A stretch of 38,044 bases of DNA. Origin: an uncultured Hyphomicrobiaceae bacterium (GTDB taxonomy: Bacteria; Pseudomonadota; Alphaproteobacteria; Rhizobiales; CAMYJA01). A program made the translations under genes and the position numbers. Below, one piece after another: positions 395 through 26,963 of this stretch (its first letter is position 1; every line of letters begins with the position of its first letter). Below the pieces are notes generated by a model that was not told the origin of the DNA, did not search any database, and was given only the letters and a program-made list of their open reading frames with translations. The DNA is taken from the NCBI GenBank assembly GCA_947258705.1, contig CAMYJA010000016.1, forward strand, positions 1 to 38,044, given 5' to 3'.

Positions 395-2248
395 TCAATA
401 ATTGTTCCCGCCGACGCCCGCGGCCGGCAGGCAAATAATGAAGCGCGCGCCGATTATCCCGTCCGTTGCGGCATCGGCGCCATCCTGATCATCGCCTGCT
501 TTGGCCGAGTTGCAGGCATAGCGATTTTCCGCCCATATCTTTCCCTTGTGAGCCAGAACAATTTCGCGGGAGATGCTCAGGCCCAAGCCCGAATTACGGC
601 TGAAGGAATCGGGTTCGGGACGGTCCGTGTAGAAACGCTTGAAAATGCGATCGAGATTTTCCGGCGGTATGCCGGGACCATCATCCTCGATGGCGATTTC
701 GATCCAATCGTTTTGTCGCCTTGCGCCGACTCTGACGGTCGATCCTTGCGGAGAAAATGAAATGGCGTTGCTTATGAGATTGTTGAGAACCTGCCCCAGG
801 CGGCTCTTGTGCCCCTGCACGACATAGTGATCCTGTCCCGAAGGTGCGGCCGTCAGATTGAGCGCCACCTGAATGCCGTCGTCCTGGTGCAAATCATTGA
901 AGACTTCAATGATGTCGCTCAAGAGACTGTTCAAAGCCAGCGGCTGCAGATCGCCCATGGCCAATTCCGCATCCAGACGCGAAGCGCTCGCGATATCCGT
1001 GATCAACCGGTCGAGGCGCCGGACATCGTTCTCGATTGTCTCTACGAGTTCCTGGCGCGCCTCATCCGACTTGACCAGTTTAAGCGATTCAGCAGCGCTG
1101 CGGACAGAAGTCAGAGGATTTTTCAGTTCATGCACCACATCGGCAGCAAATTTCTCGCTTGCCTCAATGCGCCGGTAAAGCGCCTGTGTCATATCGCTGA
1201 AAGCGCCGGAGAGCTGGCCGATTTCGTCGGGGCGATCCGACATGTCAGGAATTTCAGCACGCGCGCGTATCGTGCGCCTGACGTGATTGGCGGCATCGGA
1301 AAGCTTTCTCATCGGCCTGCCGATGGTTCCGGCCAGCATCAGGGTGGAAAGTATGGAGGCCAGGAACGCAGCAGCCGCAAGCACGATAAAAACCCAGCGC
1401 TCGGCTGCCAGGCGCTTGTCGATGTCGCCTCCGCGCGTGGTTAGCTGCAGCGCGCCCAGAACGGTATTCGCACGACTTACAGGCACACCAATGGAGACTA
1501 TGTGCTGGCCTTTTTCATTGAGGAGCAGCAGAGGTGTCGTATCGCCGTTGAGCGCAAGGCGCACTTCGGAATAAGCATTGCCATTGGCATCGCCGATATC
1601 CTTGTATATCGGCAGGTGTACGCGTTTGATCGATGCGAGCAACCCTTGCAGACGGCGCTGCAAATCATCCCACAGCCCTGTTTCACGGCCATCAGCAACG
1701 GGCGGGAGATTGCTTCTCAAAATCTGGCCCTGGGTCAGCAGAGTATCCGAATCGATGATGAGCGTACCGTCGGGGCTGTATATGCGGGCGCGGGTGTTGG
1801 TGGGGCGAACCAGCTTTCGAATTATGGAAGCAACCAATTCCGGCTTAATCGGAAATTCCAGAGCCGAAAAACCAGCATCTCCTATCTCATTCCCTCCCGC
1901 TATATCGCTGGCCAGCAACTCGTCGTCGTCGAGGTTTAAGCCACTCGGAGTGGATGTGGCGCTGCGGGCAATCGCGGCGGCGATTATTTCACCCTGGGTT
2001 TTCAGATTGGACGTTGCATCTTCTATCAACCATTTTCTTGTCTGGCTGAAATAAAAGACACCGACAATAAGGATAAGGATGCCGACCAGGTTGAACACGA
2101 ACAGGCGGGCGGTGAGACTGCGAAAGCGAAATCTCCACGTAATTTTTCCGCGCAGCCAGTTCAATTGCTCCTGGGCTCGCTCGACCCAGGACTTCAACGC
2201 CCCAGGGATGCCGTGTAAACGCCAGTTCCTGTCCGTGTCGACGGCCAT
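395..2248 (-). CDS. chvG: ChvG (ExoS/BvrS-type) membrane sensor histidine kinase
   Basis: This inner-membrane sensor kinase of the ChvG/ChvI system controls envelope and acid-stress functions in Rhizobiales. The 617-residue protein has a first transmembrane helix near residues 50-68, a large periplasmic domain, a second helix near 285-308, then a HAMP linker. The H-box FAADVVHELKNPLTSVRS puts the phospho-acceptor His at about 373. The N-box NNLISNAISF (about 489-498), DDGPGIP and NSGLGLSI follow. The reading frame stays open upstream into chvI, but the ATG at 2248 lies 16 bp after the chvI stop and gives a family-typical N-terminus, so I prefer it. The gene sits between chvI and hprK on the same strand. 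Confidence 0.93.
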   Translation of the reverse strand: MAVDTDRNWRLHGIPGALKSWVERAQEQLNWLRGKITWRFRFRSLTARLFVFNLVGILILIVGVFYFSQTRKWLIEDATSNLKTQGEIIAAAIARSATSTPSGLNLDDDELLASDIAGGNEIGDAGFSALEFPIKPELVASIIRKLVRPTNTRARIYSPDGTLIIDSDTLLTQGQILRSNLPPVADGRETGLWDDLQRRLQGLLASIKRVHLPIYKDIGDANGNAYSEVRLALNGDTTPLLLLNEKGQHIVSIGVPVSRANTVLGALQLTTRGGDIDKRLAAERWVFIVLAAAAFLASILSTLMLAGTIGRPMRKLSDAANHVRRTIRARAEIPDMSDRPDEIGQLSGAFSDMTQALYRRIEASEKFAADVVHELKNPLTSVRSAAESLKLVKSDEARQELVETIENDVRRLDRLITDIASASRLDAELAMGDLQPLALNSLLSDIIEVFNDLHQDDGIQVALNLTAAPSGQDHYVVQGHKSRLGQVLNNLISNAISFSPQGSTVRVGARRQNDWIEIAIEDDGPGIPPENLDRIFKRFYTDRPEPDSFSRNSGLGLSISREIVLAHKGKIWAENRYACNSAKAGDDQDGADAATDGIIGARFIICLPAAGVGGNNY

Positions 2249-2264
2249 AACAGATGCAGCTTTC

Positions 2265-2972
2265 TCAAGATTCCTTGAAACGGTACCCGACACCATAGAG
2301 GGTTTCGATAACGTCGAATTTCTGATCCGCGACCTTGAATTTCTTCCGTAGCCTCTTGATGTGGCTATCGATGGTGCGGTCATCAACATATACCCGATCA
2401 TCATAGGCCGCGTCCATTAATGCGTCGCGGCTTTTGACCACGCCGGGGCGTTGAGCAAGTGCCTGTAAAATCAAAAATTCGGTCACGGTCAGCGTAATAT
2501 TGTTGCCGTCCCAGTGACAGGTGTGGCGCTCGGGGTCGAGCTTGAGCTTGCCCCGCTCAAGCATCGTCGTCTGATCCGAGCTTGTCGGCGCCGTTTCACG
2601 CGCCTTGCTGCGTCTCAGAATCGCTTTGATGCGTTCCAGCAGCAGACGTTGGGAGAACGGTTTGGCGATGTAGTCATCCGCTCCCATTTTCAGGCCGAAC
2701 AATTCGTCGATTTCATCATCTTTCGACGTCAGAAATATAACCGGGAGGTCTGTTTTCTGGCGCAAATGGCGCAGAAGTTCCATGCCATCCATGCGCGGCA
2801 TCTTAATGTCGAGAACTGCCAGATCGGGCGGCGTTTCGGTCAGGCCTTCCAGCGCGGAAACCCCGTCATTATAGGTCATTACGTTGTAGCCATCTGTCTC
2901 TAGGGCTATGCGCAACGACTTCAGGATATTTCTATCGTCGTCTACCAGTGCAATCGTATTTGAAATTTTCAT
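2265..2972 (-). CDS. chvI: ChvI (BvrR-type) response regulator
   Basis: This OmpR-family DNA-binding response regulator is the partner of ChvG. The 235-residue protein has an N-terminal receiver domain with the acidic pocket VDDD (about 10-13), the phospho-acceptor Asp55 in [12 protein letters not shown], and Lys in the IAKPFS motif. A C-terminal winged helix ends in [14 protein letters not shown] and VRGVGY-like residues (LYGVGYRF). The ATG at 2972 is the natural start. The gene heads the chvI-chvG-hprK run and is divergent from pckA across a 369-bp spacer with a candidate terminator and sRNA. In this lineage ChvI affects central carbon and exopolysaccharide genes, so a link to pckA is plausible but not shown here. 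Confidence 0.95.
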
Positions 2973-3090
2973 GCTCTTTTTGTCCCCAGGGCTGGAGCTT
3001 TGGTCGCGTCGTTTGTGTTCTTAATCAGCGCGAAATGTGGCTAGAATATACTGTATTGTTCGGAATGAATGTTACATGAATAGTTTTTTG

Positions 3091-3116
3091 AAAAAAACCG
3101 GAAAGAATCCGGCTTT
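3091..3116 (-). terminator. Intrinsic terminator on the minus strand upstream of chvI
   Basis: Read on the minus strand, a stem AAAGCCGGA / TCCGGTTTT with loop TTCTT (one G-T wobble) runs straight into seven T residues (3097 down to 3091). On the plus strand the wobble becomes an A-C mismatch and no T-run follows, so the signal is directional. No annotated minus-strand gene lies upstream of it, so it must end either a small RNA or a long chvI leader. Confidence 0.7.
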
Positions 3117-3231
3117 GGTTCGGATTTTGCACTGTTAATCCACGCGTCGGCGTCAGATTGCTCCAGGGCTTGAATTTTTGATAGACTTTGCCGTGCTGAG
3201 ATGCACATTTAATGGGCAACATTTCATCTAT
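3091..3231 (-). ncRNA. Candidate small RNA of about 140 nt between pckA and chvI
   Basis: I infer this transcript from a minus-strand promoter-like sequence (3267-3238) and a clear directional terminator (3116-3091), with no convincing protein between them. The 85-codon minus-strand frame at 3025-3282 runs through the terminator and lacks recognisable features, so I do not call it a gene. The product could be a trans-acting sRNA, or an attenuated leader of chvI. The 5' end is a guess. Confidence 0.35.
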
Positions 3232-3237
3232 ATGGAC

Positions 3238-3267
3238 ATGAAATCGTGCGTTCGTGAGACTTGTCAA
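3238..3267 (-). promoter_or_regulatory. Candidate sigma70-like promoter for a minus-strand transcript
   Basis: On the minus strand a perfect -35 box TTGACA (3267-3262) is followed after 18 bp by TTTCAT (3243-3238, four of six matches to TATAAT). Transcription would start near 3231 and head toward the terminator at 3091-3116. The box was found by eye; the -10 is imperfect. Confidence 0.35.
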
Positions 3268-3310
3268 TGTTTTCCGGCTCATCCGGAGTTTGTAGCAGAG
3301 GTACTTAATA

Positions 3311-3352
3311 ATGAACCGTCAGCTATTGAACGGACTTGAAGATGATAGATAA
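3311..3352 (+). CDS. Possible 13-codon leader peptide overlapping the pckA start
   Basis: An ATG at 3311 follows a good ribosome-binding site (AGAGG, 3297-3301) at 9 bp. It encodes [13 protein letters not shown] and ends with TAA at 3350-3352, eight bases past the pckA ATG and in another frame. The pckA start itself has only a weak site. This arrangement could couple or gate pckA translation. It could also be chance in a short stretch, so confidence is low. Confidence 0.3.
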
Positions 3353-4925
3353 AGTATTTCCGATTGAGAATCCAGGCACGATTCATCGCAACAACAGTCA
3401 GGCTGAGCTATACGAGCTATCCATTGAACGCAAGGAAGGGCAGATTGCCTCGACCGGTGCGTTGACGGCGATCACGGGGCAGCATACCGGGAGATCCGCA
3501 GGGGACAAGTTCACAGTTCGGGATATGACGACCGAAGACAATGTCTGGTGGGACAACTCCAAATCCATAACATCCGAGCAGTTCGAGAGACTCTATCAGG
3601 ACTTTCTCGCCCATGCCGAGGGGCGCGAGCTTTTTTGTCAGGAGCTCTATGTCGGAGCGGACAAAAAATACCAACTGCCAACGCGAGTCTACAGCGAATA
3701 TGCTTGGCATGCGCTCTTTATCCAGAACCTCATGATCGAGATCTCTGAAGCGGAGCTCGAAAAGTTCGAGGCCGAATTCACCATTGTCGACCTGCCGAGC
3801 TTCAAGGCCGATCCGGCGTTGCATGGCGTTGACACTGAAACCGTCATCGCTGCCGATTTCAACCGGCGCCTGGTCCTGATCGGCAATACATCCTATGCGG
3901 GCGAGATGAAGAAATCGGCTTTCACCTTTCTCAATTACACACTGCCCGAACGCGGGGTCATGCCTATGCATTGTTCGATCAATGAAGGTGCCACCGGGGA
4001 TACAGCCATATTCTTCGGCCTGTCAGGCACCGGCAAGACAACCCTTTCTGCCGATCCGCACCGGACCCTGATCGGCGATGACGAACATGGCTGGTCGGAA
4101 AACGGCGTCTTTAATTTCGAAGGCGGCTGCTATGCCAAGATGATCAAGCTTTCTCCGGAAGCGGAACCTGAGATCCATGACGCCGTCAATCGCTTTGGCG
4201 CGGTGCTCGAGAACGTGGTGCTCAAGGGCCGGAGGCGGGAGCCGGATTTCGACGACGGCTCACTGACGGAAAATACACGTGGCGCCTATCCGCTCTCGTT
4301 TATTCCCAATGCCAGCAAGACCGGAACCGGCGATCATCCGAAAAATATCGTCATGCTGACCGCGGATGCCTTCGGTGTCCTGCCGCCGCTTTCGAAGCTG
4401 TCACCAAGTCAGGCAATGTATCATTTCCTTTCCGGATACACCGCCAAGGTTGCCGGAACCGAAAAGGGGGTGACGGAACCGACGGCGACATTTTCGACAT
4501 GCTATGGCGCTCCGTTCATGCCGCGGCACCCGAGTGTTTACGGCAATCTTCTGCGCGAGCTTATCGCCAAGCATAATGTGGATTGCTGGCTCGTGAATAC
4601 AGGTTGGACCGGTGGCAAATACGGCGTCGGCAACCGGATGCCGATCAAGGAAACGCGTGCGCTTCTGAGTGCCGCTCTTTCGGGTGCTCTGGCCGGTGTC
4701 GAATTCAGAACCGATCCGATATTCGGTTTTGACGTGCCGGTGGCGGTTGAGGGGGTCGACACGAAAATTCTCGATCCTCGTGGGACCTGGGACGACCCGG
4801 ATGCTTATGACGCCCAGGCAAAGGCGCTTGCCGACATGTTCGTTGAGAACTTCGCCACATTTGAGAGCCATGTCGATCGTGATGTGCTCGAGGCAGCTCC
4901 GCAATTGCGCGCAGCGGCGGAATAG
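3342..4925 (+). CDS. pckA: Phosphoenolpyruvate carboxykinase (ATP)
   Basis: This cytosolic enzyme converts oxaloacetate and ATP to phosphoenolpyruvate, CO2 and ADP, the committing step of gluconeogenesis from C4 acids. The 527-residue protein carries the kinase-1a P-loop [11 protein letters not shown] (about 226-236), the metal/ATP motif LIGDDEHGW (about 243-251), [14 protein letters not shown] and [15 protein letters not shown]. Length and motifs are those of the ATP-dependent family, not the GTP form. I chose the ATG at 3342; a TTG two codons upstream is possible. The gene is divergent from chvI, a conserved Rhizobiales arrangement. A short leader frame overlaps the start. Confidence 0.96.
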
Positions 4926-8659: not shown

Positions 8660-8896
8660 GCTTCCGGCTCCTCTTGGCTTTGTGCCGGATGCGGTGCATG
8701 TTCGATCGGGCACGGTGTGCTTGGTGATGCCCGATTATAGGCTGATGATCGTGTTTTAAAATTGATATTGCAAAATTCATCGAGAACATGGGGCGGATGT
8801 GAAAAAGAGACCGGCCGGGGCTGGGCAAAAGAAGTTTTTTTGATGTAATATGCGACACAATAAAATTTTCAGAGAGTTATGGGAGGTAGTGTGTAC

Positions 8897-9259
8897 GTGA
8901 TTCAGACCATGAATGACATTGTTCACCCGGGTGCGATTGTTGAACCCGATCCTGATTTTCCAGATGCACCCGAGGGCTGGGCAAAACCCGCGGCGGCCGA
9001 AATCGGCGTTACGCTCGGGATAGAGCTCGACGAAGATCATTGGGAGGCAGTCAGGGTAATTCAGGGATGCTACAAGGATGAGCCCGCACCGCGCCTGAGG
9101 CTGGTCAGAGATGCCCTTGACGCGCGCTTTAAGGATAAGGGCGGTTTCCGATATCTGACAGAAATATTTCCCAGCGGACCCATCACCCAGGCCTGTCTGA
9201 TCGCCGGCGTGGAACCGCCGGCGGGAAGCACCAGCATGAGTTTCGGTTCGGTGGCCTAG
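8897..9259 (+). CDS. DsrC/TusE-family protein retaining only the inner cysteine
   Basis: The 120-residue protein shows the family pattern: DEDHWEAVRVIQGCY, then FRYLTEIFPSGPITQACLIAG. In DsrC and TusE the C-terminal arm ends GLPKPxxC with a relay cysteine. Here the arm is VEPPAGSTSMSFGSVA, so that terminal cysteine is absent while the inner Cys of QAC is kept; a further Cys occurs in QGCY. It should therefore not act as a standard TusE persulfide carrier. I place the start at GTG 8897, nine bp after GGAGGT (8882-8887). GTG 8891 and ATG 8909 are alternatives, and the in-frame ATG at 8879 precedes the ribosome site. A second family member lies at 13844. Confidence 0.85.
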   Translation: MIQTMNDIVHPGAIVEPDPDFPDAPEGWAKPAAAEIGVTLGIELDEDHWEAVRVIQGCYKDEPAPRLRLVRDALDARFKDKGGFRYLTEIFPSGPITQACLIAGVEPPAGSTSMSFGSVA

Positions 9260-13797: not shown

Positions 13798-13843
13798 TGA
13801 ATGTTCTACCTAAAATAGTTTTGAATGAATGTGGGAGGCGCAA

Positions 13844-14182
13844 GTGAGCATCGAATTCGGCGGCAAGCAGATTCCTGTTTCGCAAACCGGTTTTCTTGAA
13901 AATCTGGAAGACTGGAGTGAGGATCTGGGACGCGAGATAGCCAAAGTGGAAAATATCGAATTAAGCGACAAACATTGGGATGTCATCAATTTTCTCCGCG
14001 ATGAATACCTCAATAATAATCAAAACCAGCCCAATACGCGCGCGATCGTCAAGGCGATGTCGGACAAATGGGGCGAGAAGGTCGGTCAGCGGGATGTCTA
14101 TGAGTTGTTTCCGAAAGATCCGTCCAAACAGGGTGGCCGCATAGCCGGCCTGCCGGAGAGCCGCCGCAAGGGCGGCTACTAA
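13844..14182 (+). CDS. Cysteine-free DsrC/TusE-family protein
   Basis: The 112-residue protein has the DsrC/TusE fold signature: a start MSIEFGGKQIPVSQTGFL, then WSEDLGREIAKVENIELSDKHWDVINFLRDEY, VKAMSDKWGEKVGQRDVYELFP and KQGGRIAGLPESRRKGGY. The C-terminal arm is recognisable (IAGLP) but both relay positions are non-cysteine, and I find no cysteine in the whole protein. It therefore cannot carry persulfide and may be regulatory or structural, like cysteine-less family members described as RspA. The GTG start has GGGAGG 5 bp upstream (13833-13838); an in-frame ATG at 13829 lies before that site. It is divergent from polA. Confidence 0.85.
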   Translation: MSIEFGGKQIPVSQTGFLENLEDWSEDLGREIAKVENIELSDKHWDVINFLRDEYLNNNQNQPNTRAIVKAMSDKWGEKVGQRDVYELFPKDPSKQGGRIAGLPESRRKGGY

Positions 14183-14207: not shown

Positions 14208-14242
14208 ACAAAAAACCAATGCCCTCCATGGGAGGGCATTGG
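14208..14242 (-). terminator. Strong hairpin terminator, mainly minus-strand
   Basis: A perfect 12-bp stem CCAATGCCCTCC (14216-14227) / GGAGGGCATTGG (14231-14242) has a 3-base loop. On the minus strand it leads into TTTTTTGT, so it is a textbook intrinsic terminator for the small peptide gene at 14313-14444. On the plus strand the stem lies 33 bp after the DsrC-like stop but lacks a T-run. Confidence 0.8.
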
Positions 14243-14312
14243 CAGGAGGCAGATTGGTGCAGATGGTCTCTTTATGAACATCTGCACCTGGATCTGGGTA
14301 GAGGAATTCGTA

Positions 14313-14444
14313 TTATCCGTTATCGCTAAAGGCTTCCTGAGCCCAGGCCGGATATTGCTCGAATTCAAAATCGCCGGCTGATGCGGCGGTCGATACGCCG
14401 GCCAGGCCAGCAGCGACGATTGCGATTGTCAAAAACTTCTTCAT
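14313..14444 (-). CDS. Small secreted peptide, 43 residues
   Basis: The gene runs from an ATG at 14444, with AGGAG 8 bp upstream, to TAA at 14313. The precursor begins MKKFLTIAIVAAGLAGVSTA and has a classic signal peptide: two lysines, a hydrophobic core, and an ASA cleavage site near residue 23. The predicted mature peptide GDFEFEQYPAWAQEAFSDNG is 20 residues, acidic and aromatic-rich. A strong terminator follows about 70 bp downstream, so the unit looks like a self-contained one-gene transcript. I recognise no family. Ribosome site, signal peptide and terminator together make a real gene likely; the function is unknown. Confidence 0.7.
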   Translation of the reverse strand: MKKFLTIAIVAAGLAGVSTAASAGDFEFEQYPAWAQEAFSDNG

Positions 14445-14579
14445 GGTTATTCTCCTATTGGTTTGCCTCAGTTAAATGATGGCGGAAAACTAAATTGTTC
14501 CGTTGCCATGCTCGAGAGATAGGTTCGATCGGTAAGACAAAAAGGGGTAATCAAGCGGTGGTGAATATGTGTGCGGTGT

Positions 14580-14629
14580 TGTGAGAATCGCGTGATCTCA
14601 TCGTGATTGAGGCGTGATCAGCGCCCGAT
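14580..14629. repeat. Phased hexamer repeat (CGTGAT every 11 bp)
   Basis: CGTGAT occurs exactly at 14591, 14602 and 14613, one helical turn apart. The same phase holds degenerate copies TGTGAG at 14580 and CCCGAT at 14624. It lies in the spacer 14445-14777, between the small secreted peptide gene (divergent) and tRNA-Arg. Apart from this repeat and the tRNA promoter I see no gene in that spacer. It may be a binding site for a cooperative regulator. Confidence 0.45.
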
Positions 14630-24917: not shown

Positions 24918-25511
24918 CTAGCGTGGCGCGCGTTTCGCCAAAATGCGCTGCAAGGTGCGACGGTGCATATTGAGTTTCCGGGCGGTCTCCGAAACATTCC
25001 GGTCGCAAAGCTCATAGACACGCTGAATATGCTCCCAGCGCACCCGATCGGGCGACATGGGATTTTCCGGAGGATTGGCTTTTTCGTCAGGGGAGGAGAA
25101 GAGCGCCTTCATCACATCATCCGCATCAGCTGGTTTTGCCAAATAATCGACCGCACCCAGTTTTACGGCCGTGACGGCCGTTGCGATGTTTCCGTATCCG
25201 GTCAGAATGATCGCCCGGGCCTCGGGATTATGGTTCTGGAGCTCGGTCAGTATGTCGAGGCCGTTGCCGTCTTCAAGACGCATGTCCACGACGGCAAATG
25301 CCGGCGCCCGTGCCCTGATTTCCTGAATACCTTCTGCGACCGACTGCGCCAGCTTCACTTCGAAGCCGCGCGATTCCATCGCCCGCCCCAACCTGTTGAG
25401 AAATGGACCGTCATCGTCGACGATCAACAGGCTGCGGTCTTCTGGTAATGGAGAAGGTGTTGTTTCAGGCACTTCAATCTCGTTTATTGCGTCACTCGGA
25501 CCAGACAACAT
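24918..25511 (-). CDS. regA: RegA/ActR/PrrA-type redox response regulator
   Basis: This is the DNA-binding partner of RegB, a global regulator of respiration and redox balance in alphaproteobacteria. The 197-residue protein has a receiver domain starting SLLIVDDDGPFLNRLGRAM with phospho-acceptor Asp76 in VVDMRLEDGNG, and a short Fis-like helix-turn-helix tail RVRWEHIQRVYELCDRNVSE through MHRRTLQRILAKRAPR, which is typical of RegA. I prefer the ATG at 25511. A GTG at 25571, 12 bp after the regB stop, would add 20 residues, and neither site is strong. regB precedes it on the same strand. Confidence 0.93.
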   Translation of the reverse strand: MLSGPSDAINEIEVPETTPSPLPEDRSLLIVDDDGPFLNRLGRAMESRGFEVKLAQSVAEGIQEIRARAPAFAVVDMRLEDGNGLDILTELQNHNPEARAIILTGYGNIATAVTAVKLGAVDYLAKPADADDVMKALFSSPDEKANPPENPMSPDRVRWEHIQRVYELCDRNVSETARKLNMHRRTLQRILAKRAPR

Positions 25512-25583
25512 GACTGTTACACTACACACCAGCGGGCGCTTCTCCAAGCGTTGCCGACCCTTATCGTTCACGCTTCAATAATA

Positions 25584-26963
25584 TCAAGCAGTCGTCGAAG
25601 CGGCCTGATATTGTTCGGAAACGTGCGGAGGGATATCCATAGGTTCGAACTTGCTCCGTTTCCAGGTGACGCGGATCACGGCGCCATGTTCTGGTTGATA
25701 GCGGTTCGCCAATGTCAGGCTTGCCCCGGCACGCTCAAGAAGCGTTTTGGCAATAAAGAAGCCGAGACCCAGACCCGACCCATCGCCGGTCGCCATGTCT
25801 TGTCTGTTCGCAGACCGTGTGGTCACAAAAGGCTCGCCCAGGTTATCCAGAATTTCGTTGGAAAATCCCGGCCCGTCGTCGGAGATGACGATCGAGATAT
25901 CCTCTTCCGTCCAGCTTGCCGAGATGGTGACAACGCCCTCGGCAAAGTCGACCGCATTTTCAATCAGATTGCCAAGACCGTAGGAAACGCCGGGACAGCG
26001 GTCGCATTCCGGCTCGGAGGCGTTCTCGACATCCTCTCCACGAAGCGGTTCGGTAAGGATTCGAATACTGGTTTCGCCGTGCCGATAGGGTTCGGCAACT
26101 TCTTCAACTAGCTCCGAGAGCGTCAGTTTTTTCAGCAGTTGATCGGTTTTACCCGGACTGCGCGTCAGCTTGGTAAGAATTTCGCGGCACCGCTCCGCCT
26201 GCGAGTTAATCAATTTCAGGTCCTGAGCCACCTCTTCGTCCTCGGGAAGGGCGCGCATCAATTCCCTGGTCGTGACGTAGATGGTTCCCAATGGCGTGCC
26301 GAGCTCGTGGGCTGCGGCAGCGGCCAGGCCGTCCAGGGCGCTCAGCTGTTGCTCTCTGGCGAGCACGTTGTCAGCCGCGGCAAGCGCCGCCGACATTTGC
26401 CGCGCCTCAACAGAAAGGATATTGGCCGCAGCGGCAATATAGAGAAGCGATGCCAAAATAGAGGCGAACACAGCCGTTTGATAAGGTAACGGCGTTCCGA
26501 ATTTCTCGCCCGTGAACCACGGCAGGGGCTCATGGAAGGCGAAGAGAAGAACGACGGTAAATACGGTCAGGACCGAGATGATGGCTGTGTTGCGCAGCGA
26601 CAGGGTGGTCGCGGAGATGATCGAGGGGGCAATGATCAGGAATATGAAGGGATTTTGAATGCCCCCTGTCATATAAAGAAGCGCCCCGATGCTGACAACG
26701 TCATAGATCAGAAGCCACATTGCGAATTCCGGGCTTAAGCGCGTGCGTGCTGGAAAATACAGTCGCAAGACGACGTTCAGCATGACCGAAACGGAAATCA
26801 GCGCAAGGCAGACGATCCAGTTGAACCTGATATCGAGCAGCCAGGTGACGATCAGGACGGTGAGCAATTGGCCGGTAATGGCGAGCCATCGCAATCGCAT
26901 CAGGGATTGCAGCTTGAGTTGCCTGGAATTTTTCTGGATCGGGTGTTGGGTGTCAATCGCCAT
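25584..26963 (-). CDS. regB: RegB/ActS/PrrB-type redox sensor histidine kinase
   Basis: This membrane sensor responds to quinone redox state. The 459-residue protein has about six N-terminal transmembrane helices (to about residue 183) with the conserved quinone-linked loop GGIQNPF (100-106). The H-box is LAAAAAHELGTPLGTI with His219. The redox-active cysteine of the family is present as Cys259 in ERCREILTKL. The ATP-binding motifs NLIENAVDF, DDGPGF and GSGLGLGFFIA follow. All residues needed for redox control by cysteine and quinone are present. It is divergent from an ABC exporter-senC set, with an operator-like repeat cluster in the 112-bp spacer. Confidence 0.95.
   Translation of the reverse strand: MAIDTQHPIQKNSRQLKLQSLMRLRWLAITGQLLTVLIVTWLLDIRFNWIVCLALISVSVMLNVVLRLYFPARTRLSPEFAMWLLIYDVVSIGALLYMTGGIQNPFIFLIIAPSIISATTLSLRNTAIISVLTVFTVVLLFAFHEPLPWFTGEKFGTPLPYQTAVFASILASLLYIAAAANILSVEARQMSAALAAADNVLAREQQLSALDGLAAAAAHELGTPLGTIYVTTRELMRALPEDEEVAQDLKLINSQAERCREILTKLTRSPGKTDQLLKKLTLSELVEEVAEPYRHGETSIRILTEPLRGEDVENASEPECDRCPGVSYGLGNLIENAVDFAEGVVTISASWTEEDISIVISDDGPGFSNEILDNLGEPFVTTRSANRQDMATGDGSGLGLGFFIAKTLLERAGASLTLANRYQPEHGAVIRVTWKRSKFEPMDIPPHVSEQYQAASTTA

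Follow-up and report, generated by a model that had tools for sequence, protein, structure and literature searches.

A candidate family of short exported peptides in the Rhizobiales, with a helically phased TCAC array upstream of some of its genes

Introduction

Gram-negative peptide pheromones and class II microcins are short exported peptides that are sometimes encoded in several copies. Pheromones usually diverge between species, and most antimicrobial peptides are cationic. To our knowledge, secreted peptides of only about 20 residues are poorly known in Gram-negative bacteria. At the level of transcription, response regulators of the OmpR/PhoB type bind direct repeats spaced about 10–11 bp apart. 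The published pattern found nearest to the one described below is that of CenR in Rhodobacter sphaeroides, TGA-N8-TGA, for which Table 1 of a source available in part includes sites such as TCACGATCCTCTCAG (PMC9275681). For ChvI, the available part of another source cites the motifs N-GCC-N8-GCC in S. meliloti and TTGC-N3-GCAA in Caulobacter (PMC9731502).

The window analyzed here, a stretch of 38,044 nucleotides from the genome of an uncultured Hyphomicrobiaceae bacterium (the source genome, G000), carries a 43-codon open reading frame (ORF) for a precursor with a 20-residue mature part. In contrast to the pheromones and microcins, this peptide has a predicted Sec-type leader, is acidic, and is encoded with no receptor, immunity or dedicated exporter gene nearby. 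Two paralogues, a family of 35 members spread over 10 of the 397 genomes sampled in the order and the signature of purifying selection place the ORF beyond chance, and it is almost certainly a real, conserved gene for an exported peptide. With a probability of about 0.5, the family may be read as condition-dependent exported peptides whose genes are activated by an OmpR/PhoB-type regulator and which act beyond the cytoplasm by means of a short aromatic helix.

The peptide gene

An earlier note on this DNA, made from the sequence alone, had proposed a small secreted peptide gene with a strong ribosome site, a signal peptide ending in ASA, an acidic, aromatic mature part of 20 residues and, as its own terminator, a perfect 12-bp hairpin. 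Each of these parts is present (Table 1), on the minus strand, which the note had not given. The signal peptide has an MKK start and a hydrophobic core. The mature part has a net charge of −5 and five aromatic residues, and it lacks Cys, His and Met. The note had placed the length of the ORF below usual gene-calling limits; common gene callers accept ORFs of about 90 nt.

Table 1. Features of the peptide locus, in coordinates of the window
Feature	Position	Strand	Basis
Precursor coding sequence, 43 residues, MKKFLTIAIVAAGLAGVSTAASAGDFEFEQYPAWAQEAFSDNG (ATG 14444, stop 14315–14313)	14313–14444	minus	paralogues, family, pS > pN
Signal peptide, residues 1–23, end ASA (21–23)	14376–14444	minus	sequence; cleavage predicted
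Mature peptide, residues 24–43, GDFEFEQYPAWAQEAFSDNG, with core YPxWAxxAF	14316–14375	minus	family alignment; helix model
Ribosome-binding sequence AGGAG, 8–12 nt before ATG	14452–14456	minus	AGGAGAA in 3/3 copies of the source genome
TCAC half-site array	14561–14617	minus, co-directional with gene	positions common to the copies of the source genome ±1
Conserved stretch from array to start codon (putative promoter core and 5′ leader)	14445–14560	minus	alignment of the three copies of the source genome
Second 3′ UTR hairpin, inner stem of 10 perfect pairs (14256–14288)	14250–14296	minus	sequence, folding
Intrinsic terminator, stem 14215–14243 then six T	14209–14243	minus	sequence, folding

The terminator stem consists of 12 perfect base pairs, CCAATGCCCTCC-CAT-GGAGGGCATTGG, and one G-T pair, followed by TTTTTT; it is oriented with the peptide gene and begins about 70 nt past the stop codon. 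It is far stronger than the minimum accepted by a scan for terminator-like sites, which returned 2 such sites across the window against 2.3 expected, a number not above chance. The second hairpin sits between the stop codon and the terminator, and the 3′ region as a whole folds with z = −7.0 against shuffled sequences. This second hairpin is not kept in the paralogue on contig C12, and the 3′ hairpins differ among the copies of the source genome. Downstream of the C12 copy (L029, 11871–11960) there is a row of short inverted repeats resembling GCCAC-N3-GTGGC, followed by a terminator. The window gene is convergent to a DsrC-like gene (13829–14182), and a tRNA-Arg gene lies 334 bases from it.

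The family and its distribution

The source genome (2.77 Mb in 66 contigs) holds two further copies: one at C12:49739–49867, with 67% identity across all 43 residues, and one at C44:7791–7895, which the contig end truncates and which is 77% identical over 35 residues. In the order, an E value of 0.001 or less was reached in 43 of 397 genomes. Ten of these were counted as family-bearing, with 35 copies matching at E 4e-8 or better; they represent six families (f1, f3, f9, f12, f32 and f48), and the five f12 genomes belong to one genus. Conservation beyond the strain, whose absence, along with that of a transcript, the earlier note had named as the refutation of its claim, is therefore found across six GTDB-type families. 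Together with the paralogues and the selection described below, it upholds the claim that a real gene encodes a small secreted peptide and has a terminator of its own. The 33 genomes left out had best E values of 2e-5 to 1e-3, mostly over the signal part, and a screen for a small exported ORF with Trp yielded no family member in those with loci given. In G045, a borderline case, the sequence MKATMTALIIAFGVLATATAASAGHYSGWHQGFWQEVDNSSG may represent a distant member; it was left out of the count. Other tiny exported aromatic-rich ORFs that are possible distant relatives lie at L034 3843–3995 (MKYTINALVIALTIVGGIAAS..., genome G002) and at L040 8528–8656 (...AGHYSGWHQGFWQEVDNSSG, G045).

In the class sample 6 of 385 genomes match, the source genome included, and in the phylum sample 5 of 398, among them G023 of the same order; those outside the order (5/385 and 3/398) are weak (E 1.9e-5 or worse) and fall in frames of at least 81 residues. 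The phage and plasmid collections gave no family match. The family thus looks confined to one order and sparse within it, as seen through non-exhaustive samples and a first-pass search that may miss divergent members; a profile search of the source genome, which has no such limits, found no fourth copy. In a collection of named sequences 17 stretches matched, of which seven carry a family ORF (L073, L074, L077, L078, L080, L081 and L084; L073 and L077 come from one contig) and ten do not. Four Alphaproteobacteria MAGs labeled Dive100 account for L073, L074, L078/L081 and L080, and L084 comes from a bacterium labeled Vin_4. According to the part of the source available, Dive100 is a diffuse-vent sample from the Longqi hydrothermal field (PMC9769843).

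The copies of the source genome are separate single-gene units, whereas relatives carry tandem arrays of up to seven copies. In the f12 genomes the genes run head to tail (with gaps of 42–53 bp in G011), so that a single promoter has to suffice for as many as seven of them. Three of the G011 copies are near-identical, with one or two residue differences in the mature part. A variant ending SxETSNWxLDxY or close to it is the first gene in G011, G155 and G095 and also occurs on G058, a recurrence that suggests specialized members rather than mere amplification.

No member among 18 searched passed a curated Pfam or NCBIfam cut-off: the first had no match near cut-off, and the best E values of the other 17 were 0.018–0.085. 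The closest likeness is to DUF4148 (PF13663), also a small exported protein, whose profile matches the N-terminal 27 residues weakly (E 0.038, 14.8 bits). However, this match covers the signal part only (profile positions 1–27 of 62), stays under the 27-bit cut-off and is found in just 1 of the 18 members. A profile search of the PDB gave only signal-peptide-like noise, the literature searched contained no paper with the exact family motif strings, and a broad search of the small-peptide literature produced nothing relevant. As far as these searches go, the family appears to be undescribed. It falls within the known general class of small secreted proteins, and its putative control site is unusually clean. 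Neither the paralogues and the tandem arrays of relatives nor the conserved core and the phased promoter array, described below, had featured in the earlier note.

Sequence constraint and the conserved core

Comparison of the window copy with the C12 copy gives pS 0.68 and pN 0.06 for the signal part and pS 0.72 and pN 0.38 for the mature part; against the C44 copy the values are 0.67 and 0.04 (signal part) and 0.88 and 0.48 (mature part). The C12 and C44 copies differ little, with pS/pN of 0.26/0.04 and 0.14/0.07 in the two parts, respectively. In the f12 genus pS also exceeds pN in both parts for most pairs, an exception being the signal part of G155_1 versus G095_1 (pS 0.00, pN 0.04). The direction is consistent, although single pairs of such short sequences are noisy, and the pattern indicates purifying selection on the protein. 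In the family alignments Met1 and Ala23 are invariant and Lys2 is nearly so, which bears out the proposed signal peptide: this residue conservation is the evidence for a Sec-type leader with Ala at the predicted cleavage site.

The mature parts have in common a core, YPxWAxxAF. Among 25 of them the Trp is present in all, Ala at +1 in 23 and Ala at +4 in 21; at the flanks, Tyr at −3 is found in 21, Pro at −2 in 19 and Phe at +5 in 15. Paralogues within one genome differ outside this core. An AlphaFold model from one sequence is poor (mean pLDDT 60). With 24 sequences the overall pLDDT is 65.4, and a helix is modeled, with modest confidence, at residues 33–40, exactly over the core (block mean pLDDT 73). 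An amphipathic character of this helix was considered and rejected, as its moment is no higher than that of column-permuted versions (fraction 0.15).

The promoter array and its candidate regulators

Upstream of the window copy, TCAC half-sites stand at −173, −162, −151, −140 and −120 from the ATG, all on the sense strand and in 11-bp steps apart from the last gap of 20 bp, which contains a degenerate half-site, ACAC. The half-sites of the other two copies lie one base further, the phase is identical in all three, and the C12 copy has three additional half-sites further upstream; the three peptide promoters of the source genome hold five or six helically phased half-sites. A four-fold TCAC array at 11-bp steps occurs in 3 of 332 genomes, and the reversed control pattern occurs once in the same set. 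In the source genome it is found at three places only, the three peptide promoters; elsewhere it occurs once in G198 and, as a short tandem stretch, once in G180. Because repeats with a helical period are what OmpR/PhoB-type regulators bind, we infer an OmpR-type activator. The array is likely to be its site, and the copies of the source genome are probably switched on through this repeated element.

The G198 array (L133, G198:C287, 1283–1319) lies about 260 bp upstream of the gene for a secreted protein whose start, read by eye, looks subtilase-like; this is a hint that other exported proteins come under the same regulator. When the pattern is relaxed to a three-fold array at 10–11-bp steps, the source genome has the three peptide promoters and two places on contig C9, and the sole such array of G002, a genome from another family, is 120–144 bp upstream of a peptide gene. 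The source genome has just one other three-fold site at 11-bp spacing, near chance expectation; it lies in reverse orientation upstream of a gene whose product is a small, secreted, Cys-rich protein. This gene (L087, 1095–1540; G000:C9:67300–67743) encodes repeated CKG(x)NACKG runs and adjoins an OmpR-type regulator gene. The array regulator may act on this gene too, or the site may be there by chance.

Among relatives, phasing exceeds that of order-1 Markov shuffles (n = 1000) upstream of the f12 arrays of G011, G058, G155 and G095 (p ≤0.002) and of the G002b copy (p 0.001). It does not exceed the shuffles at G127, G002a, G031, G047 and the three G008 units tested. Control thus differs between lineages, since phased arrays are absent at the examined G031, G008, G047 and G127 loci and at one G002 copy. 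All five f12 genomes, including G127, share a perfectly kept inverted repeat, TCACATGGGCGTGA, which sits at about −102 to −116 relative to the first ATG (e.g., L031).

The TCA-N8-TCA repeats of the source genome fit the CenR-type arrangement of tandem, co-directional half-sites, T(G/C)A-N8-T(G/C)A, upstream of a promoter. The likeness to the CenR sites, in the part of the source available, extends to the 11-bp period, and several of those sites have the form TCACG-N6-T(C/G)A, run in the direction of transcription and precede envelope genes (PMC9275681). The three peptide promoters differ in that they carry five or six half-sites, each of them a TCAC read on the sense strand. The one CenR target tested, tolQ, has no such site in the 300 bp upstream of its frame in the source genome, and for this reason CenR was not assigned. 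By eye, the ChvI motifs, as cited in the available part of their source (PMC9731502), do not resemble the TCAC array and do not seem to recur as conserved elements among the three promoters. No consensus matching the array was found in the BvrR literature, as far as its available parts go. The window itself has, at 395–4925, genes for a stimulus-sensing histidine kinase and an OmpR-type regulator opposite an ATP-type PEP carboxykinase gene, an arrangement that we take to be chvG-chvI-pckA, and 25 kb further, at 24918–26963, what is presumably a RegB/RegA-like pair.

Proposed function and alternatives

In the proposed mechanism, a surface or redox cue would activate an OmpR/PhoB-type response regulator, which would multimerize on the TCAC array and so drive transcription of all copies at once. 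The exported precursor would be trimmed at ASA, losing its leader, and the free peptide would act in the periplasm or outside the cell. There the YP-capped short helix xWAxxAF, the sole conserved part, would dock on a conserved partner in the envelope or the extracellular space. Export and selection are well supported by the sequence comparisons and the activator is supported by the repeat pattern, whereas the site and mode of action of the peptide are proposals. The presence of multiple copies under one signal suggests that large amounts of the product are required, as for an effector in stress or at the envelope and not for a catalyst.

The main rival holds that the mature peptide, or its YPxWAxxAF piece, is an intercellular signal with a receptor in the same species. 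A signaling role is possible: the peptide is exported, about 20 residues long, regulated, and encoded in several near-identical copies in G011. Against a pheromone speak the identity of the core across six families and the divergence of paralogues outside it within one genome; in addition, no kinase or receptor gene lies beside any copy in the neighborhoods examined, although receptors can be unlinked. A pheromone is therefore unlikely, and an envelope or stress effector is tentatively preferred over it, at odds somewhat short of even. A toxin-like or antimicrobial action against competitors would agree with small, secreted, multi-copy products that vary outside the core, but the 25 mature parts have a mean net charge of −2.6 and no immunity or exporter gene is found among the neighbors examined, which makes this improbable. 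The metal-binding role once suggested by the earlier note falls on composition. The mature part is acidic, and a three-fold TCAC site does precede the gene of the Cys-rich secreted protein, but reversed and near chance; the conserved residues are Tyr, Pro, Trp, Ala and Phe, and no conserved Cys, His or Met ligand was found in the 25 mature parts, of which one contains Cys, three a single His and two a single Met. Metal binding by a periplasmic peptide is thus very improbable and was rejected.

That the transcript rather than the peptide matters, as a regulatory RNA or a leader whose ORF is incidental or encodes an arrest peptide, could be argued from the strong 3′ structure of the window copy and the conserved 5′ leader. 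Selection acts on the protein, however, the 3′ hairpins are not shared among the copies of the source genome, and there is no conserved downstream gene, so that such a function is disfavored and has very little probability. A chance ORF has only its shortness in its favor and is refuted by the paralogues, the family in the order and the excess of pS over pN; its probability is negligible. A more far-reaching reading, speculative and open to considerable doubt, is a new class of Gram-negative exported micropeptide. In such a class, a dedicated two-component regulon would have as its main output here several copies of a secreted 20-residue aromatic-helix peptide, serving as a communication or surface-conditioning agent of marine, often sulfur-oxidizing alphaproteobacteria.

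A family absent from Pfam and NCBIfam comes here with an experimental handle, a promoter array that in its own genome marks the peptide genes alone. The array regulator, once found, would give the inducing condition, and the YPxWAxxAF core could serve as bait for a partner. The occurrence of tandem arrays in alphaproteobacteria associated with vents suggests that the family has a role in their ecology.

Genomic neighborhoods and sulfur oxidation genes

No conserved neighbor was found in the neighborhoods examined. In G008, one copy follows a fasciclin-domain gene beside a pair of genes for an ECF sigma factor and an RskA-type anti-sigma factor; another lies behind an ECF sigma gene and the gene of a small secreted protein whose likeness to TTHB210 is below threshold. 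Unlike the G008 copy at the ECF sigma/RskA/fasciclin locus, the window copy lacks a nearby ECF gene and has a promoter array of its own. The C44 copy lies about 1 kb from an ECF sigma gene; this may be coincidence, because a TPR-protein gene and a terminator-like hairpin intervene. Control by ECF factors and control by two-component systems both point to extracytoplasmic cues. Other neighbors are genes for a Crp-type regulator (G002) and a FecR-domain protein (G031), and in f12 a folC-like and a thioredoxin gene on either side.

The sulfur oxidation gene dsrA is present in 6 of the 10 peptide-bearing genomes and in 33 of the 387 others (Fisher p 1e-4). Counted by family the figures are 4/6 versus 13/46 (p 0.08), and since five of the genomes belong to one genus and confound the comparison, the link to sulfur oxidation is merely suggestive. 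The window contains two DsrC-like genes of different kind, at 8879–9259 and 13829–14182 (Pfam DsrC, 54 and 114 bits, respectively), the latter ending GGRIAGLPESRRKGGY, without a C-terminal Cys. The dsrA gene of the source genome is located on contig C2.
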